Positions 2,900 to 34,007 of a stretch of DNA of 34,488 nt are shown here, in pieces. Position 1 is the stretch's first letter. Each line of letters starts with the position of its first letter. The notes under the pieces are model-generated. The model was not told the DNA's origin, searched no databases, and worked only from the letters and a program-made list of their open reading frames with translations. Origin of the DNA: Thermoproteota archaeon (GTDB lineage Archaea > Thermoproteota > Bathyarchaeia > Bathyarchaeales > Bathycorpusculaceae); NCBI GenBank assembly GCA_012513715.1, contig JAAZBP010000132.1, forward strand, positions 1 through 34,488, given 5' to 3'. Position numbers and translations under genes: made by a program.

Positions 2900-3406
2900 T
2901 TGTTTGAAGTAGAGATTACCATCCAAAACGTCGTATTGATTGGTTCCTTTAATGAGCCTGTCGACCTTATGGATGCTAATGTAAATTTGGACGGCTCAAA
3001 GTGTAAATGGCGAAGATTTCCCGGTTTGTCCTATAAACTAAAAGTGCCCCCTGCTACCTTTCTACTGTTTAGGAATGGAAAATTTGTCTGTACAGGAATA
3101 AAATCAGAAGCCAAAGGCAAAGAAGCACTTGTTACTTTCCTAAGTATGCTGAAAACGAAGGGTTTAGTTTCAAACGACTGCACATTCGAATGCTGTGTGA
3201 AGAATCTTGTCGCCTCCGTGAACATAAACGGGGCCTCAGCCTCCTTAGAAGAGTTCACTAAACAGTTCGAAAGAGCAATCTATGAGCAACTGAAGAATTA
3301 CCTGAAGCATCAACCTACAGAAAAAGAATTCCTAAATTACGTTGAAACCTTAGAAACAGACTTGCCTTCATGGCTACAAACCAAAACATTAGACATACAA
3401 ACATAG
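2900..3406 (+). CDS. TBP-like protein with truncated second repeat and novel C-terminal domain
   Basis: The start is TTG at 2900 after AGGTGA. Residues 2-88 are a recognisable TATA-binding-protein repeat: FEVEITIQNVV, then FPGLSYKLKVP, ATFLLFRNGK and FVCTGIKS, matching the conserved FPGL-Y, AT-LIF-GK and CTGAKS blocks. A second repeat begins at about 96 (VKNLVASVNI) and runs through one helix (114-126). It then stops and is replaced by a 40-residue domain (128-166; EQLKNYLKHQP, EFLNYVETLE, LPSWLQ). The same domain ends the zinc-ribbon protein at 16356. Normal archaeal TBP has two full repeats in about 180-190 residues, so this 168-residue protein cannot form the usual saddle alone and may dimerise. 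A structured RNA lies just downstream. DNA binding is inferred. Confidence 0.8.
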   Translation: MFEVEITIQNVVLIGSFNEPVDLMDANVNLDGSKCKWRRFPGLSYKLKVPPATFLLFRNGKFVCTGIKSEAKGKEALVTFLSMLKTKGLVSNDCTFECCVKNLVASVNINGASASLEEFTKQFERAIYEQLKNYLKHQPTEKEFLNYVETLETDLPSWLQTKTLDIQT

Positions 3407-3717
3407 ACGCCCTAAATTTAGAAAAAAGAAGAGGATTTTTCAGAAACAGAGATCCGTATCTATTCCGAGTGAACACTGGCGCCCTCTTTTCTCAAAGGGC
3501 AGTTCATTCGATGTATTCCGGAAGAAGCTTTGGCTTCCTCCGATGAGCTGGTAAACTCTCCTGAAGATGTCAACGGCAAACGCCTGCTGACTGCTCCTCA
3601 GTTATTGTGCTGGGGGGTGGCTTGTCGCGCCAGCCACTGGAACATATCCAGTGTATGCGGCAAAGCCGAAACATGGACAGCCAACAAGGCCTCCATGTTG
3701 AGAGCACATAACCAACC
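3281..3717 (+). repeat. 436-bp duplicated module, copy A (C-terminal domain plus structured RNA)
   Basis: The segment from the shared C-terminal domain codons to the end of the structured RNA matches 16602-17036 in order and almost exactly in length. The two copies sit behind different N-terminal coding parts, a TBP repeat here and a zinc ribbon there. The duplicated unit therefore starts inside a coding region and carries the RNA with it. Confidence 0.8.
3463..3717 (+). ncRNA. Candidate structured RNA, copy A
   Basis: This 255-nt stretch is highly similar to 16780-17036, but the differences fall in loops or change both sides of a stem. Stems seen: GCCCT/AGGGC, GAAGC/GCTTC, GGC/GCC around AAAC, CCTCAG/CTGGGG, CACTGG/CCAGTG, CGGC/GCCG with loop AAA, and AACATGGA/TCCATGTT. 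In copy B the last stem reads AATATGG/CCATATT, a compensatory C-G to T-A change, and GAAGC/GCTTC becomes GGAGC/GCTCT, partly compensated. No reading frame is conserved between copies. It starts 57 nt after the TBP-like gene. I do not recognise it as SRP RNA, RNase P RNA or a known riboswitch. Confidence 0.7.
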
Positions 3718-5395: not shown

Positions 5396-5479
5396 GTAAG
5401 TGAACTTATCTGCCCGCCCTTCATTATATATATTTATATATTTTTTGTTGGCTGGCGTTTTTTCAAGTGTACTTACTTG
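5396..5479 (+). promoter_or_regulatory. Two-palindrome promoter-like element, copy 1
   Basis: GTAAGTGAACTTAT (5396-5409) is followed by tGCCCGCCC, TTCATTATATATA and a T-run, then a second palindromic site ending AAGTGTACTTACTTG at 5479. Copy 2 at 21024-21107 has the same order, and the two palindromes are 67 nt apart in both. A C-rich BRE-like block followed by a strong TATA-like stretch between two operator-like sites looks like a tightly regulated promoter firing rightward into the GT-rich tract. Confidence 0.6.
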
Positions 5480-5760
5480 CTGGTGCTTCGTTGCCCGGTT
5501 GGTGGGTTGGCTGGTCTTGGTGCTTCGGATGGTTTGGCTTTGTGGGGTGGTGGGCATGTGTGGTGTTGTGGTTTGGTGGCTTTGAGGCGTTTTTGTGGCT
5601 GGGCTTGCGGCTGGTTTGTGGGTTGGGTTTGCCTTCAGTGTTTTTTGGGCATTCTCTTTTAGGGCTGCTGGTTTAGAAGTGTTTGGTTGCATTGTGTTTG
5701 GGGTTGTGGTTGCTGGCTCTGTGCTTGTGTGCCGGTTTTGGGTTGTGAGGTTCCGGGGTT
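5480..5760 (+). other. GT-rich low-complexity tract, copy 1
   Basis: About 280 nt are strongly strand-asymmetric, with G and T dominating (repeated ttggt, ggttgg, gtggtt). Open frames across it in several phases exist only because stops are rare in such sequence; none is conserved with the equivalent tract at 21105-21290. A transcript from the element at 5396 would be a G/U-rich RNA. It could pair in part with the A/C-rich tract downstream. Confidence 0.6.
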
Positions 5761-7327: not shown

Positions 7328-7522
7328 TTAGGGTTTATTTGGTTTTTCTTGTTTAGCTTTCAACTCAGCGTTTTCTTTCTTTAAAGCGGCGTTCTCATCC
7401 ATCATGGTCTTCATTACAGTGTTGAGTTGTATCATCATATCGTTGATGCGCAGGTTCAACAGACCTATTTGATGCATAACAGGCGGTGTTTCAGGAACAG
7501 TTTGAGCTGTAGTTTCCGTCAC
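7328..7522 (-). CDS. Small coiled-coil protein downstream of fibre, 64 aa (paralogue)
   Basis: GTG at 7522 lies 8 nt after GAGGTGA and is preferred over the GTG at 7534, which overlaps that site. The product is 64 aa, the same length as the protein at 2581-2775. The two share the core LNLRINDMMIQLNTV and a Lys/Glu-rich coiled-coil tail (DENAALKKENAELKAKQEK); only the first 20 residues differ much. It follows the fibre gene at 7557 by 34 nt. A fibre-assembly or fibre-tip role is inferred from the conserved pairing. Confidence 0.8.
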   Translation of the reverse strand: MTETTAQTVPETPPVMHQIGLLNLRINDMMIQLNTVMKTMMDENAALKKENAELKAKQEKPNKP

Positions 7523-8150
7523 GCTCCAAGTCACCTCATTACATTTGAATTTTATGTTAAGCTGCTGTAGGATTTTGTTTAAGCTGATTTTCTAACGCTT
7601 CAACGCGATTACGTAGTTTTTTCATTTCCACGATTAACGGTACGCCAAGCCACTCATAGTGAACACCTTCAGGTTTACCTTCACTATCGTAGTATACAAG
7701 CCCCGGGTATAGTTCGTTGACTTCTTCAGCAATCAAGCCTAACTGTCTGCCTTCTTCTTGTTTGCGTTGTTCATCTTTCCAGTCAAAGGTTATGGGTCGA
7801 AGGTTATAGAGCCATGAGCAATCTTCTACGTTACTGATGTTGTCCTTGAATCTTAGCGCTGAAATGTTGTATCCTATCTGTCCGCTTGCATTTCTGTAGA
7901 GTGGTCCGTACTGTGTGGTGTTAGCCCATGATGCGGCAACGATGTAGCCATCGACTACAAAGCCAGATGAGCATCGTAAGTAAGCGCTATCACGGTATAG
8001 CCACATGCCTCCAGATCCAAATTGTATGCCTGCCTGGGTTCTACTCTGTGCACCTTGCAACGATAATCTGTTGGCGTTATTAACGTCAACTATGTAGATA
8101 TCGTCGCCGACTTGGAATGCGTCACCGCTGCCTCCACCACCATGAATTAC
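7328..8150. repeat. Inverted repeat arm 2: conserved fibre C-terminus plus coiled-coil gene
   Basis: This is the reverse-complement counterpart of 1955-2775. Similarity begins at the VIHGGG codons of the fibre and runs through the coiled-coil gene. It ends before the intergenic region. Confidence 0.8.
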
Positions 8151-10780: not shown

Positions 10781-10867
10781 TGGTTAATAACCAAAAAATG
10801 TTTGTTAAATCTTGGTGATTTCTGTAAATTCAATTCAAAGGTTTATTCTGACAGGAGGCATGGTCTT

Positions 10868-11200
10868 ATGGCAAAACCAACCTTAACTATAAAGGGTAGA
10901 TTTCAAAACTGCATAAGCAAAATTGCTCACCACAAAAGTCTAACTCTGACAGTTAGGGGATTTGTAGTCTGCTGTGCAAACGAAAAAACTAAAGTTATAG
11001 AGCAAAAGTTCGATTGGGGCAACGCCCTCATAGACGCCATTATTACAAGCGCTATTACCTTTTTCACCGCTTTAGCCGGAGGGGCAGTATCGGGAATCAA
11101 CACCATCAACATGATAGAATCAGCCACAGTAGCAGCGCTCTCCCAATTCTTCATCTTCCTAGCACTAAAAAGAGGATTAATACAGCACAAAGAAGCTTAA
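10868..11200 (+). CDS. Small two-transmembrane protein (holin-like topology)
   Basis: ATG at 10868 lies 9 nt after GGAGG. Upstream in-frame codons to 10802 lack a ribosome site, and similarity to the paralogue at 33575-33904 begins at MAK. The 110-residue protein has a basic beta-like N-terminus (LTIKGRFQN, LTLTVRGFVVCCANEK) and two membrane helices (about 52-75, ALIDAIITSAITFFTAL; about 83-103, ATVAALSQFFIFLAL), then RGLIQHKEA. Size and topology resemble holins or small pore proteins, but no holin family is identified. In both copies it is divergent from a winged-helix gene with the 27-bp operator between them. Confidence 0.75.
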   Translation: MAKPTLTIKGRFQNCISKIAHHKSLTLTVRGFVVCCANEKTKVIEQKFDWGNALIDAIITSAITFFTALAGGAVSGINTINMIESATVAALSQFFIFLALKRGLIQHKEA

Positions 11201-13804: not shown

Positions 13805-13921
13805 ATGAATTATTTAGAGGATAGAGTAAATGTTAGAAAACCCTTAGTTAGGGAAATCTTCGGAATTTGCCTGTTTAATTCTCAAACGAGTAATAGAGGT
13901 GAGTTATATGTCGTTAGATAG
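13805..13921 (+). CDS. Small protein, 38 aa, overlapping the next gene
   Basis: ATG at 13805 has one of the best ribosome sites in the window (GGAGGTG, 5 nt gap). The product (MNYLEDRVNVRKPLVREIF and on) is short and basic with no motif. Its last codons overlap the start of the next gene by 14 nt, which suggests translational coupling. It may be a real small protein or a leader. Confidence 0.5.
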   Translation: MNYLEDRVNVRKPLVREIFGICLFNSQTSNRGELYVVR

Positions 13922-14660
13922 GGATTTTTGGGAATCGAACCCATGCTGCAAAGGCTGTACTAAATGGAGTCCTAGAGACAAAGTAGTTGTTGAGGGTGAT
14001 GAAGTCAGGTATCTTTTATGGGGAAGCCAAGTCGCAACTTGGAACAAAACGAAAGAAACCTTGATGGTTGACGATTGCGGTTGGAAGACAAAGCTTACTT
14101 TCAACAGACTGAATGCCATTCTATCAGAACTACGCATCTCTATCTATAGTATACGAGGTAAAACCTACATATGGAACCCTAAACGGCAAGTAGAATACCT
14201 CTGGGAAGGAACCCACACAATAAAATTAAACCCACTTAAAATTACGCCCTGCACGCCACGCAAGACTAACAAAAAAGTTTCGGCTGCGTTAAGAAACTAC
14301 TACGCAATGGCGTCAGAGCGTATTGAAGAACGTAAGCAGCTGGTCACAAAGACATTAGATGGCTTTGTTTGTCTGTTCCCAAGACGATACTATAGTAGAG
14401 AATTTTCGATGTTAGTTCTTGGCCTGTATGCAAGTGGTGATACCATCAAAGCCTACATGGGTAGAGTAGCTAGCTCAAAGGTTTACTCGGCCTTTATGAG
14501 AAACGATGCAACATCCTTGACAGGTTACCTTGTTCAAACCGGAGAGGAACTCAACGACCGCGAAATGTTGTCGGAGTTAAATTATTTTAGGGTTGACACT
14601 CCCTTTTTGCCTCAACCGATTTTGCAGCACCTTGCTTTGATGAAAATATTGGAGGCATAA
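13908..14660 (+). CDS. Hypothetical protein with CC-x2-C N-terminus, 250 aa
   Basis: ATG 13908 lies 5 nt after GAGGTGA and is preferred over GTG 13899, which overlaps the site. The N-terminal 75 residues (SNPCCKGCTKW, YLLWGSQVATW, LMVDDCGWKTKLTFNRLNAIL) resemble a small domain common in archaeal viral and plasmid proteins: beta strands ending in a GW-x-T-x3-RLN turn. The Cys cluster could bind a metal. The C-terminal part is helical and basic (ASERIEERKQLV, RRYYSREFSMLVLGLY). It is tightly spaced with the next gene (3 nt). Function is not known. Confidence 0.7.
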   Translation: MSLDRDFWESNPCCKGCTKWSPRDKVVVEGDEVRYLLWGSQVATWNKTKETLMVDDCGWKTKLTFNRLNAILSELRISIYSIRGKTYIWNPKRQVEYLWEGTHTIKLNPLKITPCTPRKTNKKVSAALRNYYAMASERIEERKQLVTKTLDGFVCLFPRRYYSREFSMLVLGLYASGDTIKAYMGRVASSKVYSAFMRNDATSLTGYLVQTGEELNDREMLSELNYFRVDTPFLPQPILQHLALMKILEA

Positions 14661-14663
14661 CAA

Positions 14664-15623
14664 GTGACAGCCCAAGAAATAATCACAGTGTCCTTTGACT
14701 TTAATGGCGAAACAATTTCAAGCGGCAATGTGAAGTTCAGCGTTGATAGTTGTGGCTTTCAAGGCATCAGCTTCTATATCCCATCGCAGTATGCCCTACT
14801 GCTCCTGAAAGAAGAAACAAGAGCAGAGGCTGAAAGATTAATTCAAGAAATCTCTAAAGCCTCGCTAGTTAGTTATACTCAAAAGAGGCTATTTAAGCAA
14901 GCATGCGAAAAAGGATTCAAACCTGTCTGGTCAGAGTTGCAGGAGTTAAAACGTAGGTATCCAACAAGTGAACCAAAATTCTATGCTTATGTCTCCTACG
15001 ATAGTACTATAGACAAAGGTCGAATAGTTCTTCTAACATCGGAAAAAGCGATGATCTTTTACGCTCGAGATAACCTTGACGTTGTAAGCTTGAACTTGCC
15101 GTTAAACATCTATACTTGCCCCCAAACCTATACAGGCTTTGACTTGGATCCAGAGAAATACCGCCTCCTTAAGGGTCATGAAAAAGAGCTGATGGACTTA
15201 ATAGAGGAGCTAAATCAATATAGCAACTACCTTCGCGGTAATCAAATAGATGTCTGCTTCGAAAAATTCTTCGTTAACAGAGAAGAAGCCTTGGAATTGT
15301 TAAAGGATATAAAAGCAAAAGTAGGCAACAAGGAAAGTAGAGACCATCTGTTTAATACTCTTACAAGTAAAAAGTTTTTGGAGTTCTCTGAGGGGCTGTT
15401 TGTTCATGACTATTGGTCGACCTATTATGTTTCAAAGAACGGTGAAGTGCACAAGCTTTGTTACAGTAAGAAAGTGGATATGCGAGAAGCAGTCTTGAGG
15501 GCATATGAAAAGGGGACGATACCAACAAAACTAGAAGAAGTAAAAGAAGAGCGCTTACTAAGAGAGATAGCTGAAATCGTCGGAAAAGCCAGACCGGACA
15601 TAGCCTTTGTAATTCTCCCATAG
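14664..15623 (+). CDS. Hypothetical protein, 319 aa
   Basis: GTG at 14664 follows GGAGG in the end of the previous gene, so the two are probably cotranslated. The product has a beta-rich N-terminal domain (ITVSFDFNGETISSG, GFQGISFYIPSQYA), a helical charged middle (EETRAEAERLIQEI) and a second beta-rich part (KFYAYVSYDSTIDKGRIVLLT). No catalytic motif, membrane segment or signal peptide is seen. Its position in the 13.3-16.3 kb run points to a cytoplasmic function shared with its neighbours. Confidence 0.75.
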   Translation: MTAQEIITVSFDFNGETISSGNVKFSVDSCGFQGISFYIPSQYALLLLKEETRAEAERLIQEISKASLVSYTQKRLFKQACEKGFKPVWSELQELKRRYPTSEPKFYAYVSYDSTIDKGRIVLLTSEKAMIFYARDNLDVVSLNLPLNIYTCPQTYTGFDLDPEKYRLLKGHEKELMDLIEELNQYSNYLRGNQIDVCFEKFFVNREEALELLKDIKAKVGNKESRDHLFNTLTSKKFLEFSEGLFVHDYWSTYYVSKNGEVHKLCYSKKVDMREAVLRAYEKGTIPTKLEEVKEERLLREIAEIVGKARPDIAFVILP

Positions 15624-16355: not shown

Positions 16356-16748
16356 TTGAATAAACGAGAAGTTTTACAATTGATTGCTAGGTTCAAAATT
16401 GATCGCTGTCCTGACTGCGGCGGTGAAGAAATCCAAGTGCATACTGACAGGTTTTTCATCGTTAATACTACGAAAAAGGAAGCCTATGAGCCCGTAAAAG
16501 AAGCAAATTCAGAAGATGCAGACGTGACGGAAATTGTGTGCAGGAAATGCGGTAGTAGAATTACGGCACTCCAGGATATCATTATCTTCAAAACGGCAAT
16601 TATGGAGCAATTGAAAAATCATCTAAAGCGGCAACCAATAAACAAAGAATTCCTAAACTACGTTGAAATCTTGGAAACAAACCTTCCCTCATGGTTGCAA
16701 TCCAGAACCTTAGACATATCAACCGAGTCGACGCAGCAATTTTCGTAA
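16356..16748 (+). CDS. Zinc-ribbon protein sharing its C-terminal domain with the TBP-like protein
   Basis: TTG at 16356 follows GGAGGTG at 5 nt. Cysteines 18, 21, 62 and 65 form a CPDCGG and CRKCGS zinc ribbon with a long 40-residue insert; classical TFB ribbons have about 15. Residues 83-121 (IMEQLKNHLKRQP, EFLNYVEILE, LPSWLQSRTLD) match residues 128-166 of the TBP-like protein at 2900 almost residue for residue. A structured RNA follows in both cases. A TBP-like and a ribbon protein joined to a common domain suggest two subunits of one transcription or RNA-binding complex. The family of the ribbon itself is not certain. Confidence 0.75.
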   Translation: MNKREVLQLIARFKIDRCPDCGGEEIQVHTDRFFIVNTTKKEAYEPVKEANSEDADVTEIVCRKCGSRITALQDIIIFKTAIMEQLKNHLKRQPINKEFLNYVEILETNLPSWLQSRTLDISTESTQQFS

Positions 16749-17036
16749 GAAATCATAACATGCAACAGAGTATCGTTAATTCCGAGTGGACACTGGCGCC
16801 CTTTTTCTTCAAGGGCAGTTCACTTGATGTTTTCCGGATGGAGCTTTTGGCTCTGTTCGATGAGCTGGTAAACTCTCCTGAAGATGTCAGCGGCTAACGC
16901 CTGCTGACTGCTCCTCAGCTAAGAACTGAGGGGTTGGCTTTCCGCGCCAGCCACTGGAAACATATCCAGTGTATGCGGCAAAGCCGAAATATGGAAAACT
17001 AACTAAGCTTTCCATATTGAGAGGCGTTGATCAACC
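16602..17036 (+). repeat. 436-bp duplicated module, copy B
   Basis: This is the counterpart of 3281-3717: the same C-terminal-domain codons, a spacer of similar length and the structured RNA. The coding part here reads about ten codons further than in copy A before its stop. Confidence 0.8.
16780..17036 (+). ncRNA. Candidate structured RNA, copy B
   Basis: The segment has stems GCCCTT/AAGGGC, GGAGC/GCTCT, GGC/GCC around TAAC inside CAGC/GCTG, CCTCAG/CTGAGG, CACTGG/CCAGTG, CGGC/GCCG with loop AAA, and a long AATATGGAAA/TTTCCATATT. The most conserved stretch is GATGAGCTGGTAAACTCTCC and the bases after it. Compared with copy A, both sides of stems change together at several points while loops drift. 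It begins 31 nt after the zinc-ribbon gene, so it may be released from that mRNA or act as its 3' structure. Confidence 0.7.
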
Positions 17037-17118
17037 AAGATAGTTGAAAACAGCCATCCTCACGAAGCCTTCGTACAAATAATAATCAACTTCTCATTTT
17101 CTCTACCGAGTCATCAAC

Positions 17119-17347
17119 ATGTAAGCATAGCACATACAAGTCATTGTATATGGCGAGGCATATATTAATGGGATAAACAAAAAAATTATCGTGGTCTAGT
17201 AGCCCAATTGTAACTTCACCGATGATGGCTTACTCTTTAATGATTGACTTCACCGTTGATAATTCAACAATCCATCTTCTGAATAAACCGGAATACCTAG
17301 ATGGCTTAATCGGCATCTTAAGCGGTGAATCGGTCAGCTCTCAATAG
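17119..17347 (+). pseudogene. Remnant of a paralogue of the surface protein at 20262
   Basis: The nucleotides match the 3' third of 20262-20969: GCATAGCA, GTCATTGTATATGGCGAGG, CCCAATTGTAACTTCACCG, and the region coding TSPVIANSS and NFTLDSST. Stop codons, small gaps and lost frame show it is dead. It lies between structured RNA copy B and the convergent caspase-like gene. The 82 nt before it hold nothing clear. Confidence 0.75.
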
Positions 17348-20261: not shown

Positions 20262-20969
20262 ATGTCATTTACAAAGACAAAAACCGTTTGTTTAACATTA
20301 ATCGGTCTATTAGCTTTGGGAATACCGCTTGCTAATTTAACAACTGTGACAGGTACAGTTTCAGCCGTTCCCATTGTGAGTGTTGATTCGCCCATCCAAA
20401 ATCACATGTATGAGGAGAGAGAAGTTTGGCTAAATTTTACGATAATCAGACCTGACAGCTGGACTGAACCAACCATAGGAAACCCAATATTACTAAGGAA
20501 TTTAGGAAAAATTACTCATTTAACATACATTGTGGATGGAATAAGAAGTGAGAACGTCACAGTCGATGACAATGACGTCCACACCATCCCCCTAAGCATT
20601 AAAAAAACCTTCAATTTCTCATCTCCGCTGACCGATTTATCAACAGGTGGGCATAGCATACAGGTCATCGTCTATGGCGAGGTATACGTTAGCGGAGGAA
20701 CGCACAAAAACTATGACGACCCAGCTAGCCCAGTTGTAACCTCACCGGTGATAGCTAACTCTTCAATAATTAACTTCACCCTTGACAGTTCAACAAAGCC
20801 ATCTTCCGAACAAAACCACGCAACATCAGCAGACAACTTAATCAGCATTATAAGTGGTGCAGTGATTAGCATCTCAATCCTAACGGCCCTGACCATTTAC
20901 CTAAAAAAACACAAACAGACAAAAGATACACACCTCATTCGAAGCCCACCTGCCGATAATACAATATAG
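20262..20969 (+). CDS. Secreted, membrane-anchored surface protein, 235 aa
   Basis: ATG at 20262 opens a signal peptide (LTLIGLLALGIPLANL, to about residue 36), a beta-rich Ig-like extracellular domain with several N-x-T/S glycosylation sites (NFT, NVT, NFS), a Ser/Thr-rich linker and a C-terminal membrane helix (about 193-213, ISIISGAVISISILTAL) with KKHKQTK. A decayed paralogue lies at 17119-17347. It is divergent from the caspase-like gene and may be its substrate or partner; this is inference from position only. Confidence 0.75.
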   Translation: MSFTKTKTVCLTLIGLLALGIPLANLTTVTGTVSAVPIVSVDSPIQNHMYEEREVWLNFTIIRPDSWTEPTIGNPILLRNLGKITHLTYIVDGIRSENVTVDDNDVHTIPLSIKKTFNFSSPLTDLSTGGHSIQVIVYGEVYVSGGTHKNYDDPASPVVTSPVIANSSIINFTLDSSTKPSSEQNHATSADNLISIISGAVISISILTALTIYLKKHKQTKDTHLIRSPPADNTI

Positions 20970-21023: not shown

Positions 21024-21107
21024 GTAAGTGCACTTACCTGCCCCCCTTCCATTATATAATTATTATATTTTTTTGTCCGTTGTTGTTTTTGTAAGTGTAC
21101 TTACTTG
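21024..21107 (+). promoter_or_regulatory. Two-palindrome promoter-like element, copy 2
   Basis: GTAAGTGCACTTAC (21024-21037) is a perfect palindrome. It is followed by CTGCCCCCCTTCC, ATTATATAATTATTATA and a T-run, then GTAAGTGTACTTAC at 21091-21104. The 67-nt spacing between palindromes is the same as at 5396-5479. Both copies follow a membrane-protein gene and precede a GT-rich tract. Confidence 0.65.
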
Positions 21108-21290
21108 TTTGCTTGTTGGTGTTTGGTTGTGTGGTTGTTGGTTGGTTTTCTGCTGCCCAGTTGGTTTGTGCCTCGTTGGTTGTGTGCTGCCTTTGTTTTG
21201 GGGTTGATGTGTTGTAACGGGGTTGTGGCTTTGTCAGGCTGGTTGTTGGTGATGAAGGATGGGTGAATGTGCCCTGTGGTCGGTATGGCG
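21105..21290 (+). other. GT-rich low-complexity tract, copy 2
   Basis: The strand is rich in G and T (repeated ttggt, tggttgtgtggttg). No conserved frame with copy 1 is seen. The following 110 nt up to the tandem operators hold nothing clear. Confidence 0.55.
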
Positions 21291-30907: not shown

Positions 30908-30933
30908 TCTCTTCAATTTTTTGGGTGATTGAT

Positions 30934-31569
30934 TTGTCAGAGCCAACGCAAACTTTGTGGTTTGAGGACGTAGGTTTTCTTAATGAGCAAATGCTTGATA
31001 CTCCCGTTGGACGGTTTTCTATACGCCAAACTGGAATCTTTCTAGTCTTCGGGCTTCTAGCGTGGGCTGTTTCTTTCATCTCTGAAGATCTAATAATCAA
31101 AATCGTAGCTGCAGGCGCAGTATTCTTTACTGGTGCGGCAATTTTTACTCGGAAGATAAGGACGGTATCCCCAGAAGCACACATACTTTACATGATATTG
31201 GGAAGTCCGCTCAAAACAAAGCAAAAAAACCACGACAAAGTTAACATTCAGAGCTCGGTTGAGATACCTGTTCCTTTGAAATCGATGACGCTTTCGGCAA
31301 CATTAGGTATACCCGTTAAAGTTGTCGGGTTTCTTAAAGACCCTGCAGTGGGAAAAACGCTTTCTGGTCGAAATTTTGAGGTAAATATTGATGGCGCACC
31401 CTACTCTAAGGGTTTCACTGATGAAGAGGGCTTTTTTTGCGCCTATTTCGTTCCAGAACATTATGGAACTTTCAAAATAGATGTGAAGCCTGAAGGCTTC
31501 GCTGAATCAGTTCAACAAATAATAGTAGAAGTTAAACCAAAGGAAGTGGCAGAGATTGCAAAGACTTAA
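30934..31569 (+). CDS. Two-TM membrane protein of the VirB4 operon (VirB3/PrgI-like)
   Basis: TTG at 30934 lies 5 nt after GGGTGA; the GTG at 30925 overlaps that site. The 211-residue protein has a cytoplasmic N-terminus and two closely spaced membrane helices (about 31-50, GIFLVFGLLAWAVSF; about 54-72, IIKIVAAGAVFFTGA), then basic residues. This is the layout of VirB3/PrgI partners of VirB4. An Ig-like, carboxypeptidase-regulatory-type beta domain (about 105-205; IPVKVVGFLKDP, SKGFTDEEGFFCAYFVP) completes it. The gene overlaps the ATPase gene by 14 nt, so the products are probably made together and interact. Confidence 0.75.
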   Translation: MSEPTQTLWFEDVGFLNEQMLDTPVGRFSIRQTGIFLVFGLLAWAVSFISEDLIIKIVAAGAVFFTGAAIFTRKIRTVSPEAHILYMILGSPLKTKQKNHDKVNIQSSVEIPVPLKSMTLSATLGIPVKVVGFLKDPAVGKTLSGRNFEVNIDGAPYSKGFTDEEGFFCAYFVPEHYGTFKIDVKPEGFAESVQQIIVEVKPKEVAEIAKT

Positions 31570-33574: not shown

Positions 33575-33904
33575 TTAAGTTTCTTTGGGCTGTATTAATC
33601 CTCTTTTCAGTGCTAGGAAGATAAAAAATTGTGAAAGCGCTGCTATTGTGGCCGATTCTATCATGTTGATTATGTTTATTCCTGTTACTGCCGCTCCGCC
33701 TAAAGCACTGAAGAAGGTGATAGCGCTGGTTATGGTTGCGTCTATGAGGGCGTTGCCCCAATCGAATTTTCGTTCTATACTGTTTTTTTCGTTTGCACAG
33801 CAGACTATAAATCCCCTAACCGTTAGGGTTAGAATTTTGCGGTGAAAAATTCTGCTTAGGCAGTTTTGGAATCTGCCCTTGATGGTCAAAGTGGCTTTTG
33901 CCAA
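33575..33904 (-). CDS. Small two-TM protein (inverted copy of the 10868 gene)
   Basis: TTG at 33904 begins MAKATLTIKGRF, aligning from the first residue with the protein at 10868-11200. The 109 residues keep the basic N-terminus (LTLTVRGFIVCCANEK) and both membrane helices (ALIDATITSAITFFSAL; ATIAALSQFFIFLAL). Stretches of at least 20 nt are identical between the two genes. There is no clear ribosome site, unlike the 10868 copy. The gene is divergent from a winged-helix gene with a 27-bp operator between them. A holin-like or envelope role is a guess from topology. Confidence 0.75.
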   Translation of the reverse strand: MAKATLTIKGRFQNCLSRIFHRKILTLTVRGFIVCCANEKNSIERKFDWGNALIDATITSAITFFSALGGAAVTGINIINMIESATIAALSQFFIFLALKRGLIQPKET

Positions 33905-34007
33905 CGACTAAGCCTTCTTCTGTATGGATCAGGTATAACTGTTGTCGTACTAGTTACCCAACAAGAGTCGTCCCAAAGGAAAATAGGAATTTTTTGCTTA
34001 TTAGCCA

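Follow-up and report, generated by a model that had tools for sequence, protein, structure and literature searches.

A duplicated gene 3′ end with a protein tail and a candidate structured RNA behind two different genes of a putative archaeal mobile element

How did two different archaeal genes come to end in the same protein tail and to be followed by the same putative structured RNA, and do the tail and the RNA belong together? The question is raised by a window of 34,488 nucleotides, one whole contig (G000:C91) of the 2.13 Mb assembly of a Thermoproteota archaeon. In this window positions 3281-3717 (copy A) and 16602-17036 (copy B) are about 80% identical and hold, in the same order, C-terminal codons, a spacer and the structured RNA, all on the plus strand. 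The first-pass annotation had described a duplicated module behind two different genes, with its boundary within the coding frame, and our searches bore out both points. A DNA search of the whole genome with 16587-17060 returned only the query itself and 3266-3704 (79% identity, E 5.6e-95), the self-comparison of the contig paired 3266-3704 with 16587-17023 (79.7% identity, E 1e-83), and the DNA alignment of both copies agreed with the self-comparison. In both copies the left boundary of the unit is located within the reading frame: in copy A it falls between the TBP codons ...IYE and QLKN, and in copy B the frame reads MEQLKN. The shared tail comprises 45 residues, of which 73% are identical between the copies (KTAIMEQLKNHLKRQPINKEFLNYVEILETNLPSWLQSRTLDIST and ERAIYEQLKNYLKHQPTEKEFLNYVETLETDLPSWLQTKTLDIQT).

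The gene in front of copy A is a truncated TBP-like gene. Its N-terminal part (2900-3289, plus strand; PF00352, E 2.8e-19) resembles the archaeal TATA-binding protein (TBP), with a repeat 2 that lacks its second half; of the two repeats that PF00352 calls for, the copy-A protein has the first in full and the beginning of the other. In place of the lost half stand the tail codons (3281-3406), fused in frame. Residues 1-130 of the protein (P0002) are 57-71% identical to full two-repeat TBP-like proteins in genomes of the same genus, and around 20 relatives, from ten of these genomes, have two full TBP repeats. Past residue 130 the relatives run on as ...YEPDKFPAAIYKM...ATFLVFLTGKLICSGI, which in the window is replaced after the codons TAT GAG. 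No remnant of the missing half was found downstream of copy A, the other matches being the protein's own first repeat or chance. The host TBP of the source genome is a separate gene (G000:C63:887-1252). The two-repeat relatives of 2900-3289 (L037-L056) represent a diverged second TBP-like protein of ten same-genus genomes, encoded in seven of these close to a HerA/VirB4-like ATPase gene, and this protein is apparently element-encoded. The contig studied here also encodes a HerA/VirB4-like ATPase. In seven same-genus genomes one contig piece carries the TBP-like gene together with the ATPase gene and the neighbour of the latter (30925-31569), and this linkage suggests a family of integrated elements.

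In copy B the tail codons (16602-16748), which start at an in-frame ATG (16602), follow the N-terminal part of a zinc-ribbon protein (16356-16601, plus strand). This part carries two CxxC motifs and weakly resembles a TFB-type zinc ribbon, with profile matches that score below the curated cut-offs. No convincing homologue of the zinc-ribbon gene was found in 45 relatives or in 257 genomes of the class, and its operon neighbours (13899-15623) are present in G012:C10 and G010:C132 without it. Just after copy B, 17086-17287 is 76% identical to 20611-20814, a piece of the 20262-20969 ORF, and is probably a decayed gene piece.

The RNA starts 30-55 bases past each stop codon, on the same strand as the gene; it is preceded by diverged spacers at 3407-3461 (copy A) and 16749-16778 (copy B), and occupies 3462-3717 and 16779-17036, respectively. 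The earlier reading of both copies as structured RNA was supported by folding. As expected of a structured non-coding RNA, the sequence folds better than its shuffled versions and the fold is retained across the divergent copies: copy B reaches -107.1 kcal/mol where its shuffles average -79.0 (z -5.6), and copy A -101.1 kcal/mol where they average -79.5 (z -4.4). Two 5′ hairpins are followed by a multibranched core (3542-3704 in copy A, 16859-17023 in copy B), and both copies have the same core architecture, with four arms and a CUCUC/GAGAG closure. When the copy A fold was taken as reference, in an alignment hand-adjusted at one loop, 2 of the 52 core pairs were mismatched in copy B where 8.3 were expected, and none of 5000 redistributions gave a count as low; one further core pair falls on a gap. 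The 5′ hairpins had no mismatch in 23 pairs (2.5 expected, P 0.03). With the copy B fold as reference the pair test was weaker (P 0.13 and 0.17). A change on both sides was seen in 1 of 43 core pairs, a count that is uninformative with two sequences. One-sided changes are mostly to G-U on the plus strand, and together the pair changes and the G-U wobbles would fit an RNA made from this strand.

The three parts of the unit have diverged to very different degrees. The 45 tail codons gave pS 0.55, pN 0.16 and omega 0.19 (bootstrap 0.05-0.52). Past the stop codon, the spacer shows an identity of about 50% between the copies and the RNA core one of about 86%, as counted from the alignment (the tool's "mean column identity", which scores a two-row mismatch as one half, is higher). 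Judged from these two sequences, which are the whole of the constraint evidence, the tail appears constrained as protein, by purifying selection, and the RNA as nucleic acid, with an unconstrained spacer between them. Since pS is about 0.55, the duplication is old, and since the synonymous sites of the tail have diverged to this extent, the RNA does not appear to extend into the codons. A stretch of 31 bases in the RNA, largely unpaired, is invariant (GAUGAGCUGGUAAACUCUCCUGAAGAUGUCA). A similar appearance of strong conservation could arise from gene conversion confined to the RNA. Single-base indels between the copies leave no conserved ORF in the RNA region, which was on this ground ruled out as coding sequence. 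Positions 3717 and 17036 appear to be where constraint stops, and are unproven as the physical right end of the unit or of the original event, because unconstrained sequence has decayed, as the spacer has.

The RNA matched no known family, and neither it nor the tail turned up in a second genome. At the curated gathering score none of the 4227 Rfam families matched the window, and a relaxed Rfam search of 16587-17100 gave chance-level matches only. The covariance model R1, run unfiltered on the window, found the two copies and nothing else; run with stricter filters on 100 relatives, 257 genomes of the class and 398 of the phylum, it found the RNA in none, and retrieved viral and genome loci gave none either. 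Borderline R1 matches elsewhere were chance, the one at L068 lying antisense in a coding gene. Patterns made of the conserved stretches of the RNA retrieved no homologue from viral and genome collections, and the viral, phage and plasmid sets contained neither RNA nor tail. No other genome searched held a convincing match to the tail. Weak matches of the tail profile to small archaeal proteins, by way of a P-T-x-x-E-F helix motif, were rejected as too generic for homology. Small proteins of one other archaeal family (L059, L061 and L062) share the motif GRLYNSFYYQCRRILKRDPT..EF.EFLEIL, which bears a weak similarity to the tail. We also examined the 3′ flanks of the approximately 20 intact TBP-like genes of the ten same-genus genomes, which gave no R1 match; the tail is absent from the proteins of these genes. 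A fold scan of the same flanks in fixed 250-base windows revealed none like copy B (z -6.5); the relative L039 scored -3.0 versus -3.1 for copy A, and the scan alone fails to separate copy A from background. A box C/D-like reading of GAUGA...CUGA was discarded, as the C box is a misfit and the second half lies within a stable hairpin, and a group I or II intron had no Rfam support. By sequence and fold, then, this is a candidate for a structured RNA outside the known families, present in two old and constrained copies.

Known RNA systems invite comparison. Two of the large ornate RNAs, GOLLD and ROOL, come from phage settings, and a third, OLE, has protein partners. Like these large ornate RNAs (PMC12286853), the candidate RNA is an orphan, highly structured and strongly conserved, but it is smaller, differs in sequence and has no Rfam match at the gathering or the relaxed threshold. 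It also recalls TnpB and its omega RNA (reRNA) in IS200/IS605 and IS607 elements, where a structured RNA likewise lies directly downstream of linked C-terminal codons in a mobile element, a comparison drawn partly from PMC11061315. Unlike in those elements, no RuvC nuclease, transposase or transposon ends were found in the window; a Pfam scan of 20 window ORFs, both fusion proteins included and the smallest ORFs left out, detected no RuvC-like nuclease. Moreover, the omega RNA of TnpB and IscB overlaps the 3′ coding sequence, whereas the window RNA, to judge by pS in the tail, does not.

Neither spacer contains a TATA-like box, and the RNA is therefore probably co-transcribed with the gene in front; it is probably also functional. 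It had been suggested, as one of two readings, that the domain and the RNA work together. In favor of this, the two were never found apart: the genomes searched yielded neither the RNA without the domain nor the domain without the RNA, and the approximately 20 TBP-like relatives that have no domain have no RNA either. Against it, both loci descend from one event, so that the co-occurrence of tail and RNA counts for little, and binding is a proposal. A partnership is possible, considering that neither locus has lost the tail or the RNA over a long period of divergence. We tentatively propose, with no more than a slight preference over the rival readings, that the domain would tether its protein to the RNA, yielding a small element-encoded ribonucleoprotein (RNP) that would act with transcription-factor-like proteins. 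Linked protein-RNA pairs of mobile elements elsewhere proved to be RNP systems. That the RNA of about 250 nt, through a binding domain grafted onto half a TBP and a zinc ribbon, might be brought to the transcription machinery or titrate it is a further step that we hold to be unlikely. The structure of the tail was predicted with low confidence (P0001; mean pLDDT 43), and its charge is near neutral.

Just as likely as binding by the tail is that the RNA acts in cis only, as a 3′ UTR structure serving stability, termination or translational control, the domain being merely the end of the gene. The strand of the RNA, its distance of 30-55 bases from the stop codons and the lack of a TATA-like box in the spacers all agree with this, as do the free synonymous sites of the tail, by which the RNA stays out of the codons. 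However, some 250 nt with a 31-base invariant and largely unpaired stretch represent more conservation than a stability hairpin needs, and downstream of copy B there is no T-run terminator. Should the RNA be real, an archaeal mobile element would possess a structured RNA that belongs to no family, and the same protein tail in front of it twice makes the locus a natural test of whether the two are partners; binding between domain and RNA, if it occurs, would make this an unusual instance of an RNA linked by a mobile element to proteins that resemble basal transcription factors.

As to the origin of the unit, the duplication, its age class, the truncation of the TBP-like gene and the apparent constraint on domain and RNA, with none on the spacer, probably reflect an ancient event within a mobile element, a 3′-end duplication combined with a gene fusion, which carried a linked domain and structured RNA that selection kept. 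Both copies would go back to a single segment that comprised the 3′-terminal part of a gene, coding for a short, probably helical C-terminal domain, and a structured non-coding RNA linked to it. Recombination long ago within an archaeal mobile-element lineage would have set this segment behind a second, unrelated gene, and in copy A the element's TBP-like gene would have lost its 3′ half to the incoming segment. Selection would then have kept both parts at both loci, the tail as protein and the RNA as a structured RNA of the plus strand. A different history, which we consider rather unlikely, is that two related mobile elements were joined in one contig and that the module copies are their corresponding parts. 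Several more duplicated blocks in the same contig, 76-87% identical and some of them inverted, speak for such a joining; however, the ATPase gene and its neighbour, common to the related elements, are single in the contig, and each copy has a different gene in front of it.

Two other readings fare worse. The conserved structure might be a DNA feature, such as a replication origin, a single-strand initiation site or a packaging signal, as the mobile-element setting with its HerA/VirB4-like ATPase would allow; this is quite improbable, considering that the one-sided changes, mostly G-U on the plus strand, would be tolerated by RNA but leave the other DNA strand mismatched. That the module is, as the first-pass annotation had also offered, itself a small mobile element that joins onto genes, supplying them with a new C-terminus, might be read from two copies behind unrelated genes and from the in-frame ATG at which the shared part of copy B starts, but it is very improbable, as there is no further copy in the source genome, in 257 genomes of the class or in about 400 of the phylum, inspection of the boundaries revealed neither terminal inverted repeats nor a target-site duplication (the true right end is uncertain, neutral sequence having diverged), the 3′ half of the TBP-like gene is missing rather than displaced, and a pS of about 0.55 means no recent movement.

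For the 3′-end duplication that we favor, self-mobility need not be invoked, because such duplication occurred at least twice in this contig with ordinary genes or modules. By analogy, an ordinary precedent may be seen in the S74 (endosialidase-chaperone) tail-fibre-like proteins encoded at 1962-2770 and 7333-8144: their C-terminal ~189 residues are common (79% identity) and their N-termini unrelated, and the duplication includes the downstream coiled-coil-like ORF and is in inverted orientation. Elsewhere in the contig, 10856-11200 and 33575-33915 form an inverted duplication (84%) with a membrane-protein-like ORF in both copies (omega ~0.16), and a block of about 100 bases is duplicated at 5396-5493 and 21024-21118 (81%) and is found also in a same-genus genome (L126:8994-9086).
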